Assembly: GCF_019112545.1 (NCBI RefSeq)
Contig: NW_025064889.1
Coordinates: 531,422 to 595,421, forward strand
DNA length: 64,000 nt
From: Guyanagaster necrorhizus
Lineage: Eukaryota; Basidiomycota; Agaricomycetes; Agaricales; Physalacriaceae
Direction of reading: 5' to 3'
The notes beneath the pieces were generated by a model. The model was given only the letters and a program-made list of their open reading frames with translations, searched no databases and was not told where the DNA came from. Below, piece by piece: positions 12,071 through 63,768 of this stretch (position 1 is its first letter; the number at the start of each line of letters is the position of its first letter). Made by a program: the position numbers and the translations under genes.

Positions 12071-13405
12071 ATGTTGCCTCTTGCCATGTATCATCACTTA
12101 TGCACTCTCAAGCCTTTGGTGAGGGAACCCACCTCTGATAGCCCTGAAGAGGCTAAGGAATTATTTCATCTGAAATGGCAAACTATGGAGAAAGAGTATG
12201 CAGAGACTGTGAAAGTCCACTTAGAGTAGAAAAGAGAGCAGGAGAGAGAGAAGAAGGTCTGAGCAGACCATGTGATCTAGGAGGCATGGAGAAAGAAGCA
12301 GCAAGAGAGGTTGGAGAAGAAGAGGGAGGAAGTCCAGTGGACAGCAGAGAGATGGGCAAAGGAGGTGGAGGAGGTGTTGAGAGAGGCAGCTCAAAGGGAG
12401 GCTAAGAAGAGGGAGGCCATAGAGGCCATAATGAGGGCTGAGGCCTTGGAAGTAGGGCAGGAGGGGATAGTTATAGAGAATGAGTTGCAAATGACCTCTG
12501 CAGAGGCTGTTGATTTTTGGCTGCATCAAGTGCTGACAGAACAGTTTGGTCCTAGTCTCAGTCTTCACTTCAAGAGAGTGACTGGCTGTATGTCTCTGGA
12601 GTCTAATGATGAGCAGGATAAGGGGACCAAGGGGAATGATGAGTTGAAAGAATCTGAGAGGACTCTGGAGAGAAGAAAGTGAGTGCAAGAGAGGAAGAAG
12701 AGAGTGGCAGGTCTGACAGAGAAGAGCCATAAATGTAAGTTCAGGTCAAGAAGTATAGTGAATAGCAGTGAGACAGAGGTGGTGGCCAGTCTCAAGAAGA
12801 GGGCAAAGTTAGAGATTGCAGGGCCAGCAGAGAGCAAAAAGAAATTGAGCAGTGAAAGTAAGTGTCTTATTGTTTCTGGTTGGCTTGTCTTAGTTCTGTT
12901 TTCAAGGAGTTGTGTGTGCTGCTATCAAGATGGCACACCCTGTTATACACATCTGGTAACTGAAGGTGCTGGCTGTAGGCAGACTTGTGCCTGTTGCAAG
13001 ATTAAGAAGACCATCTGTTCATTCAATAAGGGCATCACTGCAAGTGAGGTGATCAGCAGTGTGGAGGTCTCTGCTGGTCTCCACCAACTTTTAAAGTTAA
13101 TATGCAAGTTGATGCATCATGTGAATGAGTTGGCAGATAAGGTGGCAGATGTCCATGGTACCATAGTAGATCTCCAGGATAATTACAGGTCAGATGATAT
13201 GTTGTCTCTCTCAGAGTTGTTTTCAGAGTCTGAATTGGAGGCCTGAAAGAAGGCTTGTCTGCTTTTCAAGAATGAGAAGGATCAAGAGGTGGAAGATCTG
13301 TGGGAGGTGATGTTGAAGAGGCTGGATGAGGATATAGAGGAGTTGAAGAGGCAGAGAGAGAGTTCAGATTCTGATGCAGACCCATTGGATTCCACTTTCT
13401 TGTAA
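12071..13405 (+). pseudogene. Decayed antisense gene of element I (coiled-coil plus Zn2Cys6-like)
   Basis: Plus-strand gene, opposite to the gag-pol strand of element I. It is the degraded counterpart of the intact gene at 62430-63768. The start ATG at 12071 and stop TAA at 13403-13405 are at equivalent places. The middle reads SAEAVDFWLHQVLTEQFGP against PAEAVDFRLRRVLVERFGP in the intact copy. The intron is still visible (GTAAGTGTCTTATTG... to ...TTTTCAAG near 12859-12907). All six cysteines of the CX2CX6CX14CX2CX6C cluster remain (SCVCCYQDGTPCY ... CACCKIKKTIC). Several in-frame stops (for example in the coiled coil, and a TGA in the tail near 13246) make it non-functional. Upstream (11933-12070) is the purine-rich tract (minus strand) and a leader. 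Confidence 0.85.
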
Positions 13406-18429: not shown

Positions 18430-20851
18430 GAACCAAATGCCCCCTGTGCTTAATTTTTCCAATCCAAACTTTACCCACAAGTTCTTCAAACTCCTCACTT
18501 CCATCATCAGAACATTGATAGGCCTATTGATGATCATACAGCTGTGCTATAGATGTCAATCAATTACTGCCTAGACAATTTATCACTATCAAGAGTTCCA
18601 ACATATCTGTGCAATCCTATGCAATGTCATACCAGACCTCCCCCTCCACAACATTTCTGCCTCTGTCTGACAATCCTTTCATTCCACAGAAGGAGACAGC
18701 CCCAAAATCATCCCTAGGAGCCCAGCTAAAGGGCATTTTAGGAAAGAAGAGGAGCAGTGGCAGCAGCATACCTACCCCTCATGACTTCTGTCAGCAGTCA
18801 TCCAAGACACTGCAAACTCTTGAGCTACAGGATTTTGATGACCCTGATCCAACATCTCCATCCTGTCTCTCAAGCATGATGTCCTTGCAATAAGGACAGT
18901 GACCACTATCTCTGAGCCCAACATTGAGTGCCATGCTAGAGACTCTCTTGATGCTATTCAGGTGGCTTCAAGCACCAGAAATACCACAGGCTGGGAATCC
19001 CAATATACTATGATGGCATGAAGCAGGAGTTCTAGCCAGAGAGAAACTAGAGTCAGTAGTTCTGACCTATTCTTTGATGACAATGACAAAAATGAGCTCC
19101 AGTACTGGCAAGCCACAGCCAGAGAAGCTAGTCAACTGAAGTGGAGCGAAGAAAGCCAAATGATGAGCTCATTAAGATGCCATTCAGAGGTATCATGACC
19201 AGTACAACCAACCCTAAATATTGCTCCAGTCATCACAGAGGATGACATTTGACCTCTCCAATCTCTTGCTGAGTACATTGAGGAGCAGGCACATATCAGG
19301 CATCAGGCTGCTCAGGAGAATGCCCTCTTCAGGCAGTACCTCTGAGCACGAGACAGGAGGAGGGGCTCTGGAAGCTCTTGACTCACTAATATGCTTATTA
19401 GTACTACCACCAACAGCATTTCTGACTCTCTGTTCTGGGAGCCTGTCACTCCTATCACTGAGTCTGACCTTTGGACAGGATCAGTCACAGGAGTTATCTA
19501 TACAGATGACTTCCACTCTAGAGAGATGATAGATCTTGACGATGATTGCTCATTATCATATGGAACTGATATCATCATAGAGACTGATGACATCTCCATC
19601 TGGGGAGATAGAATATCATCAGACCAAGGAATGGTCAGAGGGGACAAAGAACACATCAACTCCACAGATGACATATGGCAGTTCCTTGATAGGAACTTTG
19701 CCGCTTTCTTCCTTCAGCCAAGGTTCTATTGAAACTTCCACTGGTATCACAGAGCAATAATGGCAGCAGCAGCAAGAGAGGGAGTTGAGGAGGAGCAGCC
19801 TGAGCAGGAGCCTACTCCTTGACTTGGATCTGATGATGCAGAAACCAGTACACAGTCTCAGTATGGTCACCCCAGAGGTCTTCAGCCTGTATGACAGTTC
19901 TCTCCTTAGAGAAGAGGAGAATGAGGCAACCAACATGGATAATGATGCCAAAGAGGAGAATCCTGACAGGAAAGTCAGAAACCCCCTTCTTGAGTGGGAG
20001 AAAACATTTAAAGTATGCCTGATAGAGGAGAAGTTGTGACAGAAGGTGCATGAGGCATGTGAAGAAGACTTCATTTGGCTGTACCAAGAGCAGGTAGCCA
20101 AATTATGGAGAGATAATCTCTGGTTGAGATCATCTCTAGGACAAAGGTATACCTCTGCTGATTTTCTCAAGCAGGAGGAAATTTTGCAATATGTGGCCAC
20201 TGAGCAGGCTATTTTTAATTTTAATCAAAGATATTTACATTATCAGATGGGACTATTACCACTATACAAGCTGAAGTATGGCAGAAGAATAGCACCTAAG
20301 CCATAAACACCAAGTATAATACCATCCAAATTGGCATATATAATGCCATTAATCTGAATAGCATTGTCAAGGTACTTGCTTGCCACATCAGCCATCTGCA
20401 GCACAGCATCTCAGCTGGCTCATTACTGACCACAGCCAAGTAGCCATTATCTGAACCTGTGGAGGATGCTGATTCAGCAACTATTTGCTGGACAACTACC
20501 ACCTGATGAAGCCAAAGGCAGTGAAGCCACTCTAGCAGCCCCAAAGGCTCCTGAAGGAGATGACCCTGAAGTGACAGCCCAGGGCTGGACCATTCAGAAC
20601 AGACATATCATACAAAAAGAACCTCCCTCACTAGAAAGCCCCATTGCTGATGATGGGTTCCTTCATTTGTTTCCCAGTCTGCCACTAGGATAGGCAGGCC
20701 CACCAGAGAGCAGACCCTCAAATCCAATGCCTCCCCTTGATCTCAAGGCACAAATTCTGAATGTCAAACCAATTCTTGTGTATAATCCTCTCTCCTTTAA
20801 GGGAGCATCCGATGACATTGATTGATTCCTTATGGACTGCAATCAATACTT
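18430..20851 (+). pseudogene. Decayed membrane ORF and gag 5' part of element F
   Basis: Begins with the small hydrophobic ORF seen in A and B (MPPVLNFSNPNFTHKFFKLL followed by TSIIRTLIGLLMIIQLC). Next comes a basic, Ser/Pro-rich segment (18624 onward: MSYQTSPSTTFLPLS, then LKGILGKKRSSGSS) that matches element B. From about 19.4 to 20.3 kb is acidic gag N-terminal sequence (for example LYQEQVAKLWRDN). At the right end is the start of the capsid-like region. Many stops are present. It is interrupted at 20852 by element A, and continues at 28931. Confidence 0.7.
20847..20851. repeat. Target-site duplication TACTT of element A (left copy)
   Basis: TACTT at 20847-20851 is repeated at 28926-28930 directly outside the other LTR. 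It falls within the gag of element F. Confidence 0.93.
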
Positions 20852-21275
20852 TGTTAAGCCCAAGCGTCATGTGAACTGATACACGTGATAAACAGGTGTT
20901 CCTTCGCACTTCGAGGAATCACCTGAGTTCACTATATGTATATCCGGACGGTGTGACTCAAGGTCAGATATAGACTCGAGGTAGAATGGTATGTATAAAC
21001 TTTAGCTCGAAGCTGGGGTATACCAGTGAGAGCTGTCGGTCTTAAATACTATACAGGTATCGCTAAGAATATAACTACTTATTGTGTCGTTCTGTGTCTA
21101 TGGTGCCCGTTGTCCTTGAGCATCGTTGTTGTACATAAGAGGGTAATTGTGCATCGTCGAGCGTTGCTGTATCTAGGCGGTTCAGTTGTGCTTACTAAGC
21201 CTTTCCCATGGTCCCGTGCCCTGACTAAGCATGAATAGGGGTAAAGGAATAAGAGAAAAAGGAAAAATTGTAACA
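20852..21275 (-). repeat. 3' LTR of element A
   Basis: 424 bp, 421 identical to the other LTR by my reading. The 13-mer matching the primer-binding site is at 21002-21014. Next to it inside the element is the polypurine tract at about 21276-21290 (minus strand). Confidence 0.93.
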
Positions 21276-21308
21276 TTACCCCCTCGTTAAGACCATCGTC
21301 CCGATGGC

Positions 21309-28500: not shown

Positions 28501-28501
28501 T

Positions 28502-28925
28502 TGTTAAGCCCAAGGGTCACGTGAACTGATACACGTGATAAACAGGTGTTCCTTCGCACTTCGAGGAATCACCTGAGTTCACTATATGTATATCCGGACG
28601 GTGTGACTCAAGGTCAGATATAGACTCGAGGTAGAATGGTATGTATAAACTTTAGCTCGAAGCTGGGGTATACCAGTGAGAGCTGTCGGTCTTAAATACT
28701 ATACAGGTATCGCTAAGAATATAACTACTTATTGTGTCGTTCTGTGTCTATGGTGCCCGTTGTCCTTGAGCATCGTTGTTGTACATAAGAGGGTAATTGT
28801 GCATCGTCGAGCGTTGCTGTATCTAGGCGGTTCAGTTGTGCTTACTAAGCCTTTCCCATGGTCCCGTGCCCTGACTAAGCATGAATAGGGGTAAAGGAAT
28901 AAGAGAAAAAGGAAAAATCGTAACA
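28502..28925 (-). repeat. 5' LTR of element A
   Basis: 424 bp. The promoter box TATTTAAG (minus strand, about 28691-28698) and the predicted RNA start AGCTTCGAGCTAA are spaced by 26 nt. Followed by the second copy of the TACTT duplication (28926-28930). Confidence 0.93.
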
Positions 28926-28930
28926 TACTT

Positions 28931-37968: not shown

Positions 37969-38468
37969 TGTTAGAAATATGCCAATCAAGTGAGTTTGAG
38001 TGCACACATAGAGACCAGCAGAGTGCATGGGCATTAATGAAGCTATTGACAATGTCACTCTTGAGTTGGACCCTAAGGATTTGAACAGACAGAACAGAGT
38101 TCCATCAGAGAAGCAAAGAGGAGTACTCTTCAGAGCAGAATCCAATGGATAAGGTAGGAAGGAGTTAAAGTGAGTATAAAGAGTAGATGGCTATCCAAGT
38201 TGATATTCAAACTGAGTCATTACAATGGTTATACATGGCTTTATATACTAATGGTAGCTAATTCTGAGTTGGATTCCATTGGGTTCCAATGTCAATATTC
38301 AATATCAAGTTTGAGGTCTAGATATTATAATGTGAAATATAGATATGAAATGATAATGATGAAAACGAAATTAATAGATAATGGGAAGCAGGTGGAGTCC
38401 AGTGGGTTTTGGTGATTGAATCCATAGTTGGTTGAGATGACATAGAGGCTGGCAGCACATGCATAACA
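37969..38468 (-). repeat. 5' LTR of element I (right copy)
   Basis: 500 bp, same length and ends as 11433-11932, followed by the duplication GTATT at 38469-38473. On the minus strand it contains TATATAAAG. Confidence 0.88.
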
Positions 38469-38473
38469 GTATT

Positions 38474-39165
38474 CCAGAAAATAAAGTGCTGGATCTGTTC
38501 AGACTCTATTCTAGCCATCCTCATTGATGATGAAAAGTTCAAGATAGAGGCAGACATGTTCAAAGGAGCCCTAGAGGCCATCCTCAGCTAAGAGCAGAAT
38601 AGACAGTAGAAGTCAATCATATATCTCTCTAAAGCACTCTCTACTACTGAATACAACTATAAAATCTATGACAAGGAGTTGCTAGCAATCATGATAGCCT
38701 TAGATGAGTGGTGCTACTATCTGATAGGTGTCAAGTATGACTTTAAAATCTGGATGAACTATTGAAACCTTCAGTATTTTAAAAACCCACAGAAAGTGAA
38801 CTGTTGACAAGTATGATAGGTGATAGAGCTGGCAAAATACCACTTTAGCCTCTACTATAAACCTGGCACTGCCAATAAGAAGGCAGACCTGCTCAGTCAA
38901 AGAGCAGACCATGATCAAGAAGAAAATGATAATAAAAAAATCATAGTACTCAAACCTGAAATGTTCTATACAAACACTATAATCTTTTCAACCACTCTTA
39001 AAAAAGATTCAATGAGAAAAGAAGTCAATAGAGGATGCAGTACAGTTGGTCCTTGACAATGGAAAGAAAGAGTGGATTCTTAAAGAGAGGGTACTCTATT
39101 TCTATGATGAACTGTATATACCAGCTAACAAGAAGTTGTAGAATGAAATTATCATGACATGTCAT
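38474..39165 (+). pseudogene. Chromovirus pol fragment G2, second part (RNase H to integrase start)
   Basis: Resumes the reading broken at 11432: IDDEKFKIEADMFKGALEAI, SKALSTTEYNYKIYDKELLA (RNase H), ELAKYHFSLYYKPGTANKKA and the first part of the integrase zinc finger (LYIPANKKL, EIIMTCH). It ends where element X begins at 39166. Stops and CG loss are as in the first part. Confidence 0.8.
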
Positions 39166-40580
39166 TGATATGCAGAGTACATGTCTAGCCCTATAATTTG
39201 CAAATTCTGCATAACACACTAGAATATGCTAGTAACTGAGGATCATTAGCCAGTAGAGGACTATGGCTGAGGCTCCAAGCTGATAGTCATGCTAGTCACC
39301 AATACTAAGTCCAAATTGGACTTTGTAAAAATAATATGGCCTAAGAATAAAAATTCCAAGTCAGGTTTGAACTTAGAAAAGTTCTGCACCACACCTTAGA
39401 AAATACTAAGTCCAAGTTGGACTTAGAAATGGTACCTCAAATAGGGCCAATTCTACATGCCACTAAGACAAGTATATTCTAAGACAGCTACGGATATAAT
39501 ACCATAGCCAGTTGTGGAGTATTGAGTAGAGATAGCATCATCTAGGAGCAGTAAAAAGAGAGACCCAATAATCTGTGGCTAGCACTGTGAGTTTTGACTC
39601 AAATGCCTAAGTTCAAATTTTTTAGGTATCAGATAATCTAAGAGACTTAGAATTGAGAGGAATAGAGTGGATAGGACTGGTTGACTGGACCTGACTGGGT
39701 CTGATTGATCGAGCTACTAAGAATAACTCAGAAGATTAAAACTTTGAGTAGACAGAAAGGAGTTAGGTATCCACAGTCTCTGTAGACTTAAAATAAAGCT
39801 GTGCAGTGACCAGGCAGGTCTGGGCAAGCCTAGGGGAGTCCAGGAGTGCTGCCATTCTGAAATAATGGCATGATTCTGCTTTAAACAGGAGAAATATTAT
39901 TTTGAATGCTTTATTTATAGATTCTGTACCTGTTGTTGGTGTATAAAACAAGAGAATAGGGGGGAAATAGCAAGCAAGCGATCCACCCCCGCATTCAGGC
40001 CTTCTAGCCCACTGTAGCTGGTCCCTGGGACAATGGATTTTGAATTCTGCTTCGACTTAGTGATTTATTTAAGTTGCTTTGTCACTTAGAGAGGATTGGA
40101 TTGGAATAATAACTGTATTTTGGGTTTTGAATTAATTTAGGTTTCAAACTATAAGGGTATCGGCATCAGAATACAAGTTCTTCATTTTTGAGGACTGCTA
40201 GCCAGCCAAGAGTGCAGCTAGTCAAGCCTAAATGCTTGATAGACTTAGTATTTGGGTTTTGGAGTTCATTGGGTTTTGGAATATTCTAAGTTGATTTGGA
40301 GCACAATTTGACATTGATTCTAAGTCCTAATTATACTTAAACATTGCTATAAACTACTCTCATGAGTATTGCATCTTTGAAAGCAAGATAGAGTTGAATA
40401 ACTGTCTTTATTGACTGTTTCTTTGATTTTATTTAAGACTGCAAGAGTGCTTCTATCATACTCAAAACAACTGACCTTAACTGTATTTGGTGATTGTGTA
40501 TTGAGTGGTTAGGTGTTGGTGATTGAGAGTTCATTTCTCATTCACTTCTCTTAGTCACTTAGCTGTTACCAAGCACATCA
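39166..40580 (+). mobile_element. Element X, copy 1 (1.4 kb TG...CA repeat, no ORF)
   Basis: 1415 bp starting TGATATGC and ending AAGCACATCA. A second copy exists in two pieces at 48126-49177 (inverted) and 51672-52039. No convincing coding region: the 62-codon ORF on the minus strand at 39763-39951 recurs in copy 2 only because the DNA is repeated. It contains a TATA-like GTATAAAACAAG near 39935-39950 and two palindromes of the form AAGTCCAARTTGGACTT. TG...CA ends and a presumed 4-bp duplication CCAG (40581-40584 and, after undoing an inversion, 49178-49181) suggest a solo LTR or a small non-autonomous LTR element. Confidence 0.7.
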
Positions 40581-48125: not shown

Positions 48126-49177
48126 CTGCACTCTTGGCTGGCTAGTGATCTTCAAAACTGAAGAACTTGTATTCTGATGCTGAAACCCTTATAGTTTGAA
48201 ACCTAAATTAATTCAAAACCCAAAATACAGTTATTATTCCAATCCAATCCTCTCTAAGTGACAAAGCAACTTAAATAAATCACTAAGTCGAAGCAGAATT
48301 CAAAATCCATTGTCCCAGGGACCAGCTACAGTGGGCTAGAAGGCCTGAATGCGGGGGTGGATCGCTTGCTTGCTATTTCCCCCCTATTCTCTTGTTTTAT
48401 ACACCAACAACAGGTACAGAATCTATAAATAAAGCATTCAAAATAATATTTCTCCTGTTTAAAGCAGAATCATGCCATTATTTCAGAATGGCAGCACTCC
48501 TGGACTCCCCTAGGCTTGCCCAGACCTGCCTGGTCACTGCACAGCTTTATTTTAAGTCTACAGAGACTGTGGATACCTAACTCCTTTCTGTCTACTCAAA
48601 GTTTTAATCTTCTGAGTTATTCTTAGTAGCTCGATCAATCAGACCCAGTCAGGTCCAGTCAACCAGTCCTATCCACTCTATTCCTCTCAATTCTAAGTCT
48701 CTTAGATTATCTGATACCTAAAAAATTTGAACTTAGGCATTTGAGTCAAAACTCACAGTGCTAGCCACAGATTATTGGGTCTCTCTTTTTACTGCTCCTA
48801 GATGATGCTATCTCTACTCAATACTCCACAACTGGCTATGGTATTATATCCGTAGCTGTCTTAGAATATACTTGTCTTAGTGGCATGTAGAATTGGCCCT
48901 ATTTGAGGTACCATTTCTAAGTCCAACTTGGACTTAGTATTTTCTAAGGTGTGGTGCAGAACTTTTCTAAGTTCAAACCTGACTTGGAATTTTTATTCTT
49001 AGGCCATATTATTTTTACAAAGTCCAATTTGGACTTAGTATTGGTGACTAGCATGACTATCAGCTTGGAGCCTCAGCCATAGTCCTCTACTGGCTAATGA
49101 TCCTCAGTTACTAGCATATTCTAGTGTGTTATGCAGAATTTGCAAATTATAGAGCTGAACATGTAGCCTGCATATCA
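48126..49177 (-). mobile_element. Element X, copy 2, left piece (inverted)
   Basis: Reverse complement of 39166 to about 40220, nearly identical over 1 kb. It adjoins the LTR of E through the CTGCA duplication, showing that E was inserted into this X copy. Its outer end CATATCA at 49177 adjoins CTGG and the gag of element E. Confidence 0.8.
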
Positions 49178-51209
49178 CTGGGTTGCTGTGGAGCCAGATG
49201 AGAGTGCCGAGTGGGAAAATGTGCTTCAGATAGATGAGGCCATGTACATGGCTCATTTCAGAGTGACCAGTGGTGACCATGGCATTAGTCATATGGCTTT
49301 CAGCATCTGGTAAGCCAATGGTTGTTGAAGCTGGTCTTCAGGATGCTTCTTGTTATATTGTATTGCAGTGTAGTCAGTAGCTGCATATCTCAGGATTTCT
49401 GTCTTTTCATTAGTCAAGGAATGTAGATATAATTGTCCAATCTGTGATGCTATTCAGGTAGTATCATGCTATAAAAAGTTCACCTCTTGCAGATAAAATT
49501 CCTAGTATTCTTCAATCCTCACCTCCTGTATTGCCCATTCCAGCTCTTCTTTGTCTGTATCCTCCTGTAGTATATAGGTGAGTTCCTCTCTCACACAAGG
49601 TGGATTGCTACTTTCAGTTTCTTTCCCCTCATACTTGTTGCTCTCCCCTTCTGTGAGAAGAGAAGTGGTGGACAGATCATAAAAACTCTCCACACCCTCT
49701 TGTAGTCATGCTGTTGACCCACTGTCCTGGCTGGATACTGGATCCAGCCATGGGGCCTGAAAAGTCAGAGGCATTGAGGTAGGTGGAAGCTGGCTGACTT
49801 TTGATATCAGAGTCATACTGGTTTTCTCCTGTCATTCTCACTGCCTCCACTCACTTGCAATAGAGCTGGACATTTCTTCTGTATCTGTCATTGAGGAGCT
49901 GCCTGACCATCTGACTCCCAAGGAACTCTCAGAGTGCTCAAGCAGAGACATGAGCAGTCCTTAGTACTTGTAATCTATAGTGCCTGAGGATGGACTTGTC
50001 ATCACTGAATGTAGTATTAGTGCTAGAGGTTCTTTGGAAAGGAGGATATTGTGAGATTGGAGAGTGCTGGGAAGACTTGACAGTCCTTCCTTCTGCTGCA
50101 AGGGTTTTGTTTCACCAGTGGGCTTCATCCCATGGGTCAGACTTGATACTGGGTTCTCAGAATACAGGGGTTGAGAGAGACTGGTCAGCATAGACTGATA
50201 TAAGTACAGATGTGATCTCAGGCTGGATTTTATACCAGTTGGAGATATTAGCCCTTTCCAGTCAAGCCCTTTCAATGGCTCACTGCCCCTCTCTGTGCTC
50301 TCTGTCATACTCAGTGGCCTCTCTCCTCTGCCTTCTGCTTTTGAGAATGTGCTCCTCAAGCTTGCTGCAAACTAGCTGCAGTGCATCTGGCTGCCTTTGC
50401 TTTTTCTGTCAGAGGGCTTCATCATAATTGAAGGGGATGTTAAGGTCCCAGGCAGGAAAGAGCCAATATATGATTTTATTCCTATTTTCTTGGATTTGTC
50501 ACTTATCATCAAGCCAGTCTGAGGGAGACCTCCCCAGCCCACTGCTTGTTCCAACCAAATAGTGGCTGGCAGAGGTGAGGCTGTGAGACTGGTCTTGAGA
50601 TGTCATGCAGCAGGGTCTTATAGCCATCCAAGCAGAACTGAGGGAGTCTCTGGCATGGTTACCAATCCCAGGAGTTCAAGAGGTTCTGGAAGGGTCAGAG
50701 GAGGGAGACTGCTGAAAGAAGTTGCCTAGGATGTTTTTGTCCTTATAATTGGAGACAGGGGTTTGCTGCCAGGGATTTCAGAATCCTATGAGGTGAGTGT
50801 TGCTGTTTCTGCTGCTTGGTCAGGGAGAGTATCTGTGTCTTTCTTCTTCTTGAACATCCCCTTGAGCCATACCACTAGGCCTAGCTTCAGGTAAGAGGCT
50901 TGTCAGAGACTGGTGGGATATTCATCAGGATTCAGGGATGTCATGGAGTGGGAGGTCTGGAGTTACATTTTGTAGAATATGTTGGATGTGTTAAAACTCA
51001 TTATAATATCTGATTGCTCAGGCAGTGATTGAATGGTGTCTCTGGCACAGCTGGATGATCACCAACAATCCTAATAATGTTCCAATGATGGAAGAGAGGA
51101 GTTCAAAGAACTCTCAGTCAGAATTTAGGTCTGATGTGTTGATAGAGAGCATTCAGTTTTCTCTGCACTAATATACATGAGAAAAGGGAAGAGGAAGCTT
51201 TGAGCTAAT
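49178..51209 (-). pseudogene. Decayed membrane ORF and gag 5' half of element E (inverted)
   Basis: Minus-strand gag N-terminal region. Near 50.4-50.5 kb it reads IYWLFPAWDLNIPFNYDEAL, matching element A; at 49502-49693 it has an acidic helix (EELTYILQEDTDKEELEWAI). It ends at 49178 in the same part of gag at which 40585 begins. The self-priming site is at 51196-51208. A decayed hydrophobic leader ORF lies around 51.0-51.15 kb. CG-poor with many stops. Confidence 0.7.
51196..51208 (-). other. Self-priming primer-binding site of element E
   Basis: Minus strand TTAGCTCAAAGCT, 1 nt inside the LTR. Perfect complement of AGCTTTGAGCTAA in the 3' LTR (47957-47969). The adjacent 5' LTR has AGCTTCAAGCTAA instead, so the ancestral form was probably AGCTTCGAGCTAA, identical to element A. 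Confidence 0.75.
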
Positions 51210-53883: not shown

Positions 53884-54410
53884 TGTTATGATTTTTCCTA
53901 TTTCTCTTCTATTTTCTTTTCTTTTTCCTCAGAAATGACCCCTATCTTTGCTTAGTCAGAGTGCTTAGGCCAGTGCTTATGACCATGGGAACGCTTAGCT
54001 CAGCAGCCCAAGTCGGTCATTCTCCTGTCGCACTGCTATGTGCTGTGAAGGGAGAGACAATACCTCTTTTGTCCTCAAATTGCAGTGCACAACCACAGCT
54101 CCACAGCAAGACAACAGCTTTTGTGGAGAGCCTGGCAATGATAGGGGGAATAGCTCTACAGCAGACAATATCTTTTGTGAACAGTTATTTATAACACGAT
54201 AACAGAACAGTATTTAAGTAGCATAGTTCTCGCTGTAACATCCCAGTCTTGAACTAAAGTTTTACTTCACCATCTTATCTCAAGCAAACTGCAATGCCTT
54301 GACAACACAATGCTAGTCACACACAAGTGAACTCAGTTGGACATACCCAAAGTACGAGGTACTGAACTGTTTATCACATGTCTCTAGTCATGCGGAATTT
54401 GGGCTTAACA
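53884..54410 (+). repeat. 5' LTR of element B
   Basis: 527 bp, TGTTATGATT...GGGCTTAACA. Promoter box GTATTTAAG near 54210, then 26 nt, then AGTCTTGAACTAA (54245-54257). Same family as the LTRs of F. Confidence 0.9.
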
Positions 54411-61608: not shown

Positions 61609-61645
61609 CTTAACTATCAGGATGATGGTCTTAAGAAGGGGGTAA

Positions 61646-61813
61646 TGTTATGATTTTTCCTATTTCTCTTCTATTTTCTTTTCTTTTTCCTTGGAAATGA
61701 CCCCTATCTTTGCTTAGTCAGGGTGCTTAGGCCAGTGCTTATGACTGTGGGAATGCTTAGCTCAGCAGCCCAAGTCAGTCATTCTCCTGTCGCACTGCTA
61801 TGTGCTGTGAAGG
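61646..61813 (+). repeat. 3' LTR of element B, first 168 bp
   Basis: Identical start to 53884 and nearly identical over 168 bp up to GCTGTGAAGG, then interrupted by TGTTAGGAACGTG of element J. The remaining part should lie beyond the window. Confidence 0.88.
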
Positions 61814-62305
61814 TGTTAGGAACGTGCCAATCGAGTGGGCTTGAGTGCACGCGTGGAGTCTGGCGGAGTGCGTGGGCGTTGACGAAGCTATTGGCAACGT
61901 CACCCTTGAGTCGGAGCCCAAGGATCTGGATGGACAGAACGGAGTTCTGTCAGAGAAGTGAACAGGAGTATCCTTCGGAGCGGAATCCGACGGATGAGAT
62001 AGGGAGGAGTGAGTATGAAGTGTAGATGGCTTATCCAAGTTGATATTCGAACTGAGTAGCTACGATGATGTACATGGCTTTATATACTAATGGTAGCTAA
62101 TTCCGAGTCGGGTTCCATTGGGTTCCGGTGTCGGTATTCGTTACCAAGTTCGGGGTCTAGATATTACAATGTGAAATACGGATGTGAAATGATACTGGTG
62201 AAATGAAATTAGTAGGTAATGGGAAGCGGTCGGAGTCCGGTGGGTAGTGTGATTGGATTCGTGGTTGGTTGAGGTGACACGGAGGCCGGCGGCATGCGCA
62301 TAACA
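61814..62305 (-). repeat. 3' LTR of element J
   Basis: 492 bp, matching the 500-bp LTRs of element I base by base but with CG where they have TG or CA. Contains TTTATATACTAAT, a TATA-like sequence on both strands. On the minus strand it precedes, by 25-26 nt, AGTTCGAATATC. Confidence 0.88.
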
Positions 62306-62429
62306 GTATCCCCCTCTTAGCGTTCTTGCCCTCAAGAGCGCAGATCCCGATGGCCGGTGGGGCCACATGGAAGATTGTTGGTGGCCGTGGGAGTTTTTTC
62401 AGCTTGATCTGAAACCACCATCTTCGCCT

Positions 62430-63768
62430 ATGTCGTCGCTCGCCACGTATCATCGCTCACGCACTCCCGAGCCTTTGGTGAGGGGGTCCACCCCCGATGG
62501 CCCTGAAGAGGCCAAGGAATTGTTTCGTCTGGAATGGCGAACCGCAGAGGAAGAATATGCGGAGGCCGTGGAGAGCCATTCGGAATGGCAAGGGGAGCGG
62601 GAGCGGGAGGAAAGGGTCCGGGCGGACCGTGTGGCCCGGGAGGCGCGGAAAAAAGAGCAGAAGGAGGAGTTGGAGAGGAAGAGAGAGGAGGTTCGGCAGG
62701 CCGCGGAGAGGCGGGCTAAGGAGGCAGAGGAGGCGTTGAGAGAGGCGGCTCGGAGGGAAGCTGAGGAGAGGGAGGCCGCGGAGGCAGCGGCGAGGGCTGA
62801 GGCTGAGGAGGTAGAGCCGGAGGGGATGGTTGCGGAGGATGGGTTGCAAATGACACCCGCAGAGGCCGTTGATTTTCGGCTGCGTCGAGTGTTGGTGGAA
62901 CGGTTTGGTCCTGGCCCTGGTCTTCGCTTCAAGAAGGTGACTCGCCCTACGCCTCTGGAATCCGATGATGAACAGGACAAGAGGACTGAGGGGGATGATG
63001 AGTCCGAGGAATCCGAGGGGACTCTGGAGAGGAGGAAGAGGGTGCAGGAGGGGAAGAGAAGGGCAGCGGGTCCGGCGGAGAAAGGCCGTAAACGCAAGTT
63101 CAGGTCGAAGAGCGTAGTGGATGGCAGTGGGACAGAGGTGGTTGTTAGCCCCAAAAAGCGGGCAAAGTTGGAAGTGGCAGGACCGGCGGGGGGCGAGGAA
63201 TTGTTGGATGGTGAAAGTAAGTGTCTTGGTTTTCTTTCATGGCTCAACTTAGCTTTTTTTGTTTTTAGGGAGTTGTGTGCGCTGTCGTCAAGATGGTGCC
63301 CGGTGTTATGCACGACTGGTAGCCGAAGGCGCCGGTCGAGGGCGGACTTGCTCTCGCTGCAAGATCAAGAAGACCGCCTGTTCGTTCAACAAGGGTGTCA
63401 CCGCGAGCGAGGTGATCAGCAGTGTGGAGGTCTCCGCCGGTCTCCACCAACTTTCACAATTGATACGCAAGTTGATGCGTCGCGTGGATGAGTTGGCGGA
63501 CGAGGTGGCGGATGTTCACGATACTGTGGCAGGTCTTCAAGACGACTACAGTTCCGATGATGTGTCGTCTCCTTCGGAGCTGTTTTCGGAGTCCGAGGTG
63601 GAGGCCTGGAAGAAGGCCCAACTGATGTTCAAGGATGAGAGGGATCAGGAGGTGGAGGATCTTCGGGAGGCAATGTTGAAGGGGCTGGACGAGGATATAG
63701 AGGAGTTGAAGAGGCAGGGAGAGAGTTCGGGTTCCGGTGCGGGCCCGTCGGGTTCCACTTCTTTGTAA
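62430..63768 (+). CDS. Antisense accessory gene of element J: coiled-coil protein with Zn(2)Cys(6)-like cluster
   Basis: Two exons, 62430-63216 and 63269-63768, joined over a 52-bp GTAAGT...TTTTTAG intron (phase 1), giving 428 aa without a stop. Start chosen at MSSLATYHRSRTPEP because the equivalent ATG exists in the old copy (12071); an upstream in-frame ATG at 62367 would add 21 residues. Residues about 25-135 are a highly charged Glu/Arg/Ala-rich coiled coil. Residues about 140-175 hold PAEAVDFRLRRVLVERFGPG, conserved in the old copy. Basic, nuclear-localisation-like runs are GRKRKFRSK and PKKRAKLE. Cysteines 265, 268, 275, 290, 293 and 300 form CX2CX6CX14CX2CX6C, the spacing of fungal Zn(II)2Cys6 DNA-binding domains. 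The acidic C-terminal tail is helical and Ser/Gly-rich. The strand is opposite to gag-pol of the family. Probable role: nuclear DNA-binding regulator; target unknown. A host-derived gene captured by the element is an alternative origin. Confidence 0.8.

Follow-up and report, generated by a model that had tools for sequence, protein, structure and literature searches.

Antisense accessory open reading frames (ORFs) between pol and the 3' long terminal repeat (LTR) are already known from plant retrotransposons and from the fungal Boty elements. Boty-like Ty3/gypsy elements of Botrytis cinerea and Sclerotinia sclerotiorum carry an additional antisense gene, brtn, in this position (PMC7264820, PMC8365987, PMC4227169; PMC5987419 is also cited on prior antisense-gene work), and the TRP28 ORFs of plant Retand elements run antisense and are predicted to encode DNA-binding products (PMC11963269). 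The original description of brtn is reportedly that of Zhao et al. in 2011. Here, we analysed 64,000 nucleotides of DNA from the agaric Guyanagaster necrorhizus (contig NW_025064889.1, positions 531,422 to 595,421; referred to as the window, the numbering of which is used below), near the end of which an LTR retrotransposon, element J, bears a gene next to its LTR. Comparison of the copies of this gene indicates that it is a real accessory gene of a gypsy family in a fungus, antisense, spliced and under selection. Its parts are:

62430..63216, plus strand: exon 1 of the antisense gene of J, 262 codons and one base, with an E/A/R-rich stretch and, near the end, two basic runs resembling nuclear localisation signals (NLS)
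63217..63268, plus strand: intron, GTAAGT...TAG, 52 bases here and 48–56 among 54 aligned copies
63269..63768, plus strand: exon 2, with the motif CX2CX6CX14CX2CX6C followed by two predicted helices, and the stop codon TAA

The original prediction had proposed an intact gene for 428 amino acids with a 52-bp GT-AG intron, and this was borne out: with an ATG at 62430, a donor GT at 63217, an acceptor AG ending at 63268 and the TAA at 63766–63768, the two exons splice into a single frame of that length. An alternative upstream start at 62367 was rejected, as it lies 63 bases upstream and in frame in one group of copies, 62 bases upstream and out of frame in another, and reads ATA in several; the start at 62430 was preferred because both the frame and the codon at 62367 vary among copies.

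Across the genome (53.3 Mb in 109 contigs), exon 2 had at least 150 matches (150 of 285 candidates scored) and exon 1 at least 149 (146 of 338 candidates scored). An LTR lay upstream of the gene and in the same orientation in all 41 distinct places with flanks, which were the best-scoring copies and not a random sample (the LTR at L065 matched only partly), and none of these 41 places held a gene copy away from an LTR. Exon 2 was found 151–357 bp from an integrase in 85 of the 98 integrase matches listed (the best 98 of 2523 candidates scored), and the two were on opposite strands in every one of the 85 pairs; the other 13 comprised four matches with exon 1, two without the gene and seven without assignment. 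Identities of integrase and exon 2 were closely correlated over the 85 pairs (Spearman rho 0.93), and the minus-strand integrase frame ended 181, 182 and 236 bp past the gene stop in copies L012, L013 and L022, respectively. A gene that separates pol from the 3' LTR, runs antisense to pol, is present in most listed copies and is conserved like the element's other proteins corresponds to an antisense additional ORF of the type aORF-3R. The pol of J itself lies beyond the end of the window, and its orientation in J is taken from the other copies. Because there are at least 150 copies and constraint is found in the gene frame only (see below), the antisense frame is not a product of chance; together with the LTR and integrase counts, this upholds the earlier proposal that the element carries the gene antisense to pol.

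The integrase of L013 matched Integrase_H2C2 (E = 4.8e-18), rve (5.5e-10) and SH3_Tf2-1 (6.3e-16), all over the cut-off and of the Ty3/gypsy type, as well as Chromo at E = 0.00036 and 20.8 bits, under the cut-off of 25.1. We take the family to be of the Ty3/gypsy type, with an integrase whose tail is chromodomain-like.

Intron conservation, selection and CpG decay

The donor GT was present in all 54 aligned copies (GTAAGT in 52) and the acceptor AG in 51. The length of the intron was not a multiple of three in 34 of the 54 copies, and at 49, 52, 53, 55 or 56 bases the frame is kept only by splicing; at 51 bases, as in L022, the frame also reads through. Indels were multiples of three in four of four cases in exon 2 and in two of eight in the intron. 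The intron would survive each round of reverse transcription because the sense genomic RNA does not present its splice sites. Retrotransposition reporters use the same antisense-intron trick, and the J-family intron is a natural form of this design.

The ATG, the GT-AG intron and the full frame were found together in 8 of 42 distinct aligned copies, and four further copies were open, having lost the ATG at 62430 and kept an in-frame ATG at 62367. The pooled ratio of nonsynonymous to synonymous change (dN/dS) over all changes was 0.47 in the gene frame compared to 0.61–0.89 in the other frames for the 42 copies, and 0.47 compared to 0.62–0.88 for the 12 open ones. Because CpG decay blurs this measure, selection was assessed with transversions, for which five truncated copies (L032, L048, L076, L081 and L082) were dropped from the 54 to leave 49. 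Transversions common to at least three of these 49 copies comprised 28 nonsynonymous, 28 synonymous and 3 stop changes, relative to 1976, 436 and 150 possible (ratio 0.22, p = 9e-8), and those confined to a single copy were near neutral (46 nonsynonymous to 13 synonymous). The ratios for the other five frames were 0.75, 1.02, 1.42, 1.54 and 1.74, none of them significant. The cysteine segment was the most strictly kept, with 2 nonsynonymous and 9 synonymous shared transversions relative to 210 and 57 possible. By these counts, the gene is under purifying selection between subfamilies, specific to its own frame. Taken together, the intron and the frame-specific selection argue, from sequence alone, that the gene would have a transcript of its own and would be maintained for the sake of the protein it encodes.

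CpG transitions were nearly saturated, as 171 of the 172 possible in the gene were seen in at least three of the 49 copies, which suggests methylation-linked decay of the family. Such decay suggests that the family is a target of silencing and would suit an alternative in which the antisense RNA itself matters, pairing with the genomic RNA and feeding RNA silencing or copy control, as discussed for the antisense transcripts of other elements (PMC7264820). We consider this very unlikely, however, since constraint in one frame and a kept intron call for a translated product.

Two copies, L083 and L084 (G000:C4:1797241-1797362 and G000:C69:43919-44039), were without the gene and shared one junction, a precise loss of the gene between short direct repeats; the copy on C69 is flanked by LTRs at both ends. 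These gene-less copies would be compatible with a captured host gene riding as a passenger, and an intron would be natural in a captured genomic piece. This origin is nevertheless highly improbable given that the gene accompanies most of the listed elements across wide divergence and is under purifying selection between subfamilies, that the 41 places examined had no copy away from an LTR, and that no host relative was among the best matches listed.

Protein features and proposed function

The six cysteines of the exon-2 motif were kept in 48, 47, 48, 45, 49 and 48 of the 49 copies, and three lysines of the exon-1 basic runs (K221, K242 and K243) were invariant in all 49, with adjacent arginines varying at CpG codons. 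An AlphaFold model of exon 2 built with 21 aligned sequences had a mean predicted local distance difference test (pLDDT) score of 61.3 and placed helices at residues 46–95 and 108–153. A search of the PDB with the protein returned one coiled-coil match (E = 0.93), and a scan of viral contigs returned 81 pattern matches and no relative.

The protein resembles the Zn(2)Cys(6) cluster (PF00172) in having six cysteines in two CX2CX6C groups, a basic run and an adjoining coiled coil, but differs in its loop of 14 residues, its sub-threshold score and the order of its halves, as the half resembling the canonical DNA-contacting half stands second. Among 21 exon-2 proteins, three matched Zn_clus, none with an E value better than 2.6, and 3 of 4 fragments of 45 amino acids scored 11.6–13.9 bits, under the cut-off of 21, with the halves in normal order; the antisense gene was not among the 39 Zn_clus matches of the genome. 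None of the 49 copies fitted the canonical zinc-cluster spacing signature, the second cysteine group fitted the half-signature in 44 of 49, and the swapped order was found in 40 of 49. The halves of the motif thus look swapped, the one that normally comes first coming second. On Pfam score and signature, the Zn(2)Cys(6) membership that had been predicted was not supported, and the predicted protein is best described as zinc-cluster-like.

We consider it likely that this gene, carried by the element in antisense, encodes a nuclear DNA-binding regulator of the element's own LTR transcription or copy number. In such a scheme, antisense transcription of this accessory gene would begin in or near the 3' LTR, the U3 of which would then face both ways, and the transcript would be spliced. 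Its translation would give a coiled-coil protein that enters the nucleus and, through its zinc-cluster-like domain, would bind DNA, the most probable target being the LTR of the element itself. In this way it might tune how strongly the element is transcribed or how many copies accumulate, comparable to the role of HBZ in human T-cell leukaemia virus type 1 (HTLV-1). By analogy with HBZ and with the antisense genes of plant elements, for which a nuclear product is predicted, the protein probably acts in the nucleus.

The J LTR contains three CGG-N3-CCG sites, a type of site bound by zinc clusters. Two occur within 62050–62429 compared to 0.07 expected by shuffling (P = 0.001), a spacing chosen after the fact, and the enrichment is a lead only. 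Of all copies, J has suffered least from CpG decay, and many others have lost such sites. Because the family is under such strong CpG decay and the J LTR has these sites, a more specific role can be entertained, at a rather small chance, in which the protein is an anti-silencing factor, a sequence-specific DNA binder made from the 3' LTR that would protect or reopen LTRs against cytosine methylation. VANC proteins are the anti-silencing proteins of plant DNA transposons, and the J-family protein would, if this were true, be their counterpart in a fungal LTR element.

The cysteine motif with its lysines, the NLS-like runs and the coiled coil would also be of use in a virus-like particle or pre-integration complex, where the product could act as a nucleic-acid chaperone, in nuclear import or, with the chromodomain integrase, in target choice, and not in transcription. 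The parallel divergence of gene and integrase agrees with this role, although such parallelism is to be expected of any pair of genes within a single element. An antisense unit of its own, complete with an intron, is an unusual route to a particle protein, and gene-less copies with both LTRs exist, even if the protein could have been supplied to them in trans; we therefore regard a particle function as unlikely, though deserving of consideration.

Several observations weigh against the nuclear regulator that we prefer. The whole 428-amino-acid protein had no Pfam match at E = 1, leaving it without a Pfam family, and the cysteine region was modelled by AlphaFold with low confidence (pLDDT below 50, about 41). 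Between elements I (described below) and J, DNA identity was 76% in the gene and 80% in the LTR, such that the gene was no better conserved than the LTR. Exon-1 indels, decayed copies included, were multiples of three in just 12 of 30 cases, and among transitions, shared and single changes barely differed. The 39 younger copies alone carried no signal of selection (15 nonsynonymous to 6 synonymous, p = 0.25), so that the signal stems from divergence between subfamilies. Finally, the common deletion of the two gene-less copies suggests that they spread with no gene in cis, and the case for its being essential is weaker for it; supply in trans is possible. With so many copies in a single genome, the promoter, the splicing and the predicted DNA binding are open to direct test.

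Insertion of J and other elements of the window

The other features of J and its insertion site are:

61809..61813, no strand: GAAGG, left half of a 5-bp target-site duplication whose right counterpart is outside the 64-kb window
61814..62305, minus strand: LTR of J, 492 bp with TG...CA ends, the 3' LTR provided that pol runs along the minus strand
62078..62086, minus strand: candidate TATA box TATATAAAG of the sense promoter in the J LTR, from sequence reading only
62306..62318, minus strand: candidate polypurine tract, purine-rich AAGAGGGGGATAC on the minus strand, adjoining the LTR, found likewise

The purine tract on the minus strand beside the LTR fits a minus-strand gag-pol in J. The edge of the LTR was located by LTR copies away from the gene, which match to query positions 492–494, and gene-side copies, which extend to 497–499; its final 95 bases recur with 98.9% identity at the far end of the insert, as the right LTR, and the gene starts 125 bases from the LTR. 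J is an insert of 6973 bases that splits the 3' LTR of another, plus-strand element and has GAAGG at both flanks. The intact LTR copy of this host element has GAAGG once, at 54030–54075. The host is a gypsy element with segments at 53884–54410 and 61645–61813 in the window and 68787–69150 outside it, and the two parts of its split 3' LTR are 95.8% and 95.6% identical to its 5' LTR. About 190 bases separate its last integrase match (61455) from its LTR (61645), leaving no room for an antisense gene of this kind. The remaining gypsy elements in and around the window had integrases of 31–37% identity.

A second member of the family, element I, is decayed:

12071..13405, plus strand: decayed copy of the gene, with premature stops and acceptor AA
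13604..14872, minus strand: integrase/chromodomain remnant, 76% identical to the L013 integrase and antisense to the gene

As the original prediction said, this copy keeps the start, the stop and all six cysteine codons, and its donor and exon lengths (787 and 500) are also retained; the acceptor reads AA and premature stops interrupt the frame, the first after 52 codons, so that slightly less is preserved than had been predicted. A J-family LTR at 37969–38472, about 80–85% identical to the J and I LTRs, had no gene match beside it in a self-comparison of the window and is perhaps a solo LTR. Outside the window, at approximately 79755–81579 in window coordinates, L010 is a rearranged family copy with a left end, part of the 3' side of the gene and an inverted piece of LTR.

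Elsewhere in the window, direct repeats at 20851–21276 and 28501–28926 (99.3% identical) flank minus-strand integrase frames and are likely the LTRs of a young gypsy element. An inverted repeat of 1055 bases (39163–40217 and 48126–49180; 98.8% identical) has arms 7.9 kb apart, and an open frame at 199–1464 with tRNA-ligase anticodon-binding and LARS1 domains is part of a leucyl-tRNA synthetase gene.

Comparison with described antisense genes

The original prediction was unaware of any antisense gene for a Zn(2)Cys(6) protein in a fungal element. The literature searched, which was partial, yielded no element from a fungus in which an antisense gene encodes a cysteine motif or an antisense intron is kept, and the word antisense is absent from the available text of one survey of LTR elements in fungi (PMC3248453); a fungal antisense gene in a like place has been described, however, namely brtn of Boty (PMC7264820, PMC8365987). 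The antisense ORFs of the plant elements Retand, Grande and RIRE2 (TRP28 and gene23) are similar in having a predicted DNA-binding or nuclear product (PMC11963269, PMC7264820), but differ in protein and host, and Retand is a non-chromovirus (PMC11963269). The word intron is absent from the available parts of both accounts of these plant ORFs (PMC11963269 and PMC7264820). HBZ of HTLV-1 is likewise transcribed in antisense from the 3' LTR and spliced, and encodes a nuclear regulator (PMC11963269), but it is a bZIP factor of an animal retrovirus, and no relation to it is claimed. The J-family gene shares with brtn a fungal gypsy element and a position antisense between pol and the 3' LTR, and differs from it in host, those of brtn being ascomycetes; the two are likened here by published description. 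As far as the literature was searched, what the J family adds to these systems is an antisense intron kept across copies, selection specific to the gene frame, and a cysteine-motif, coiled-coil protein.
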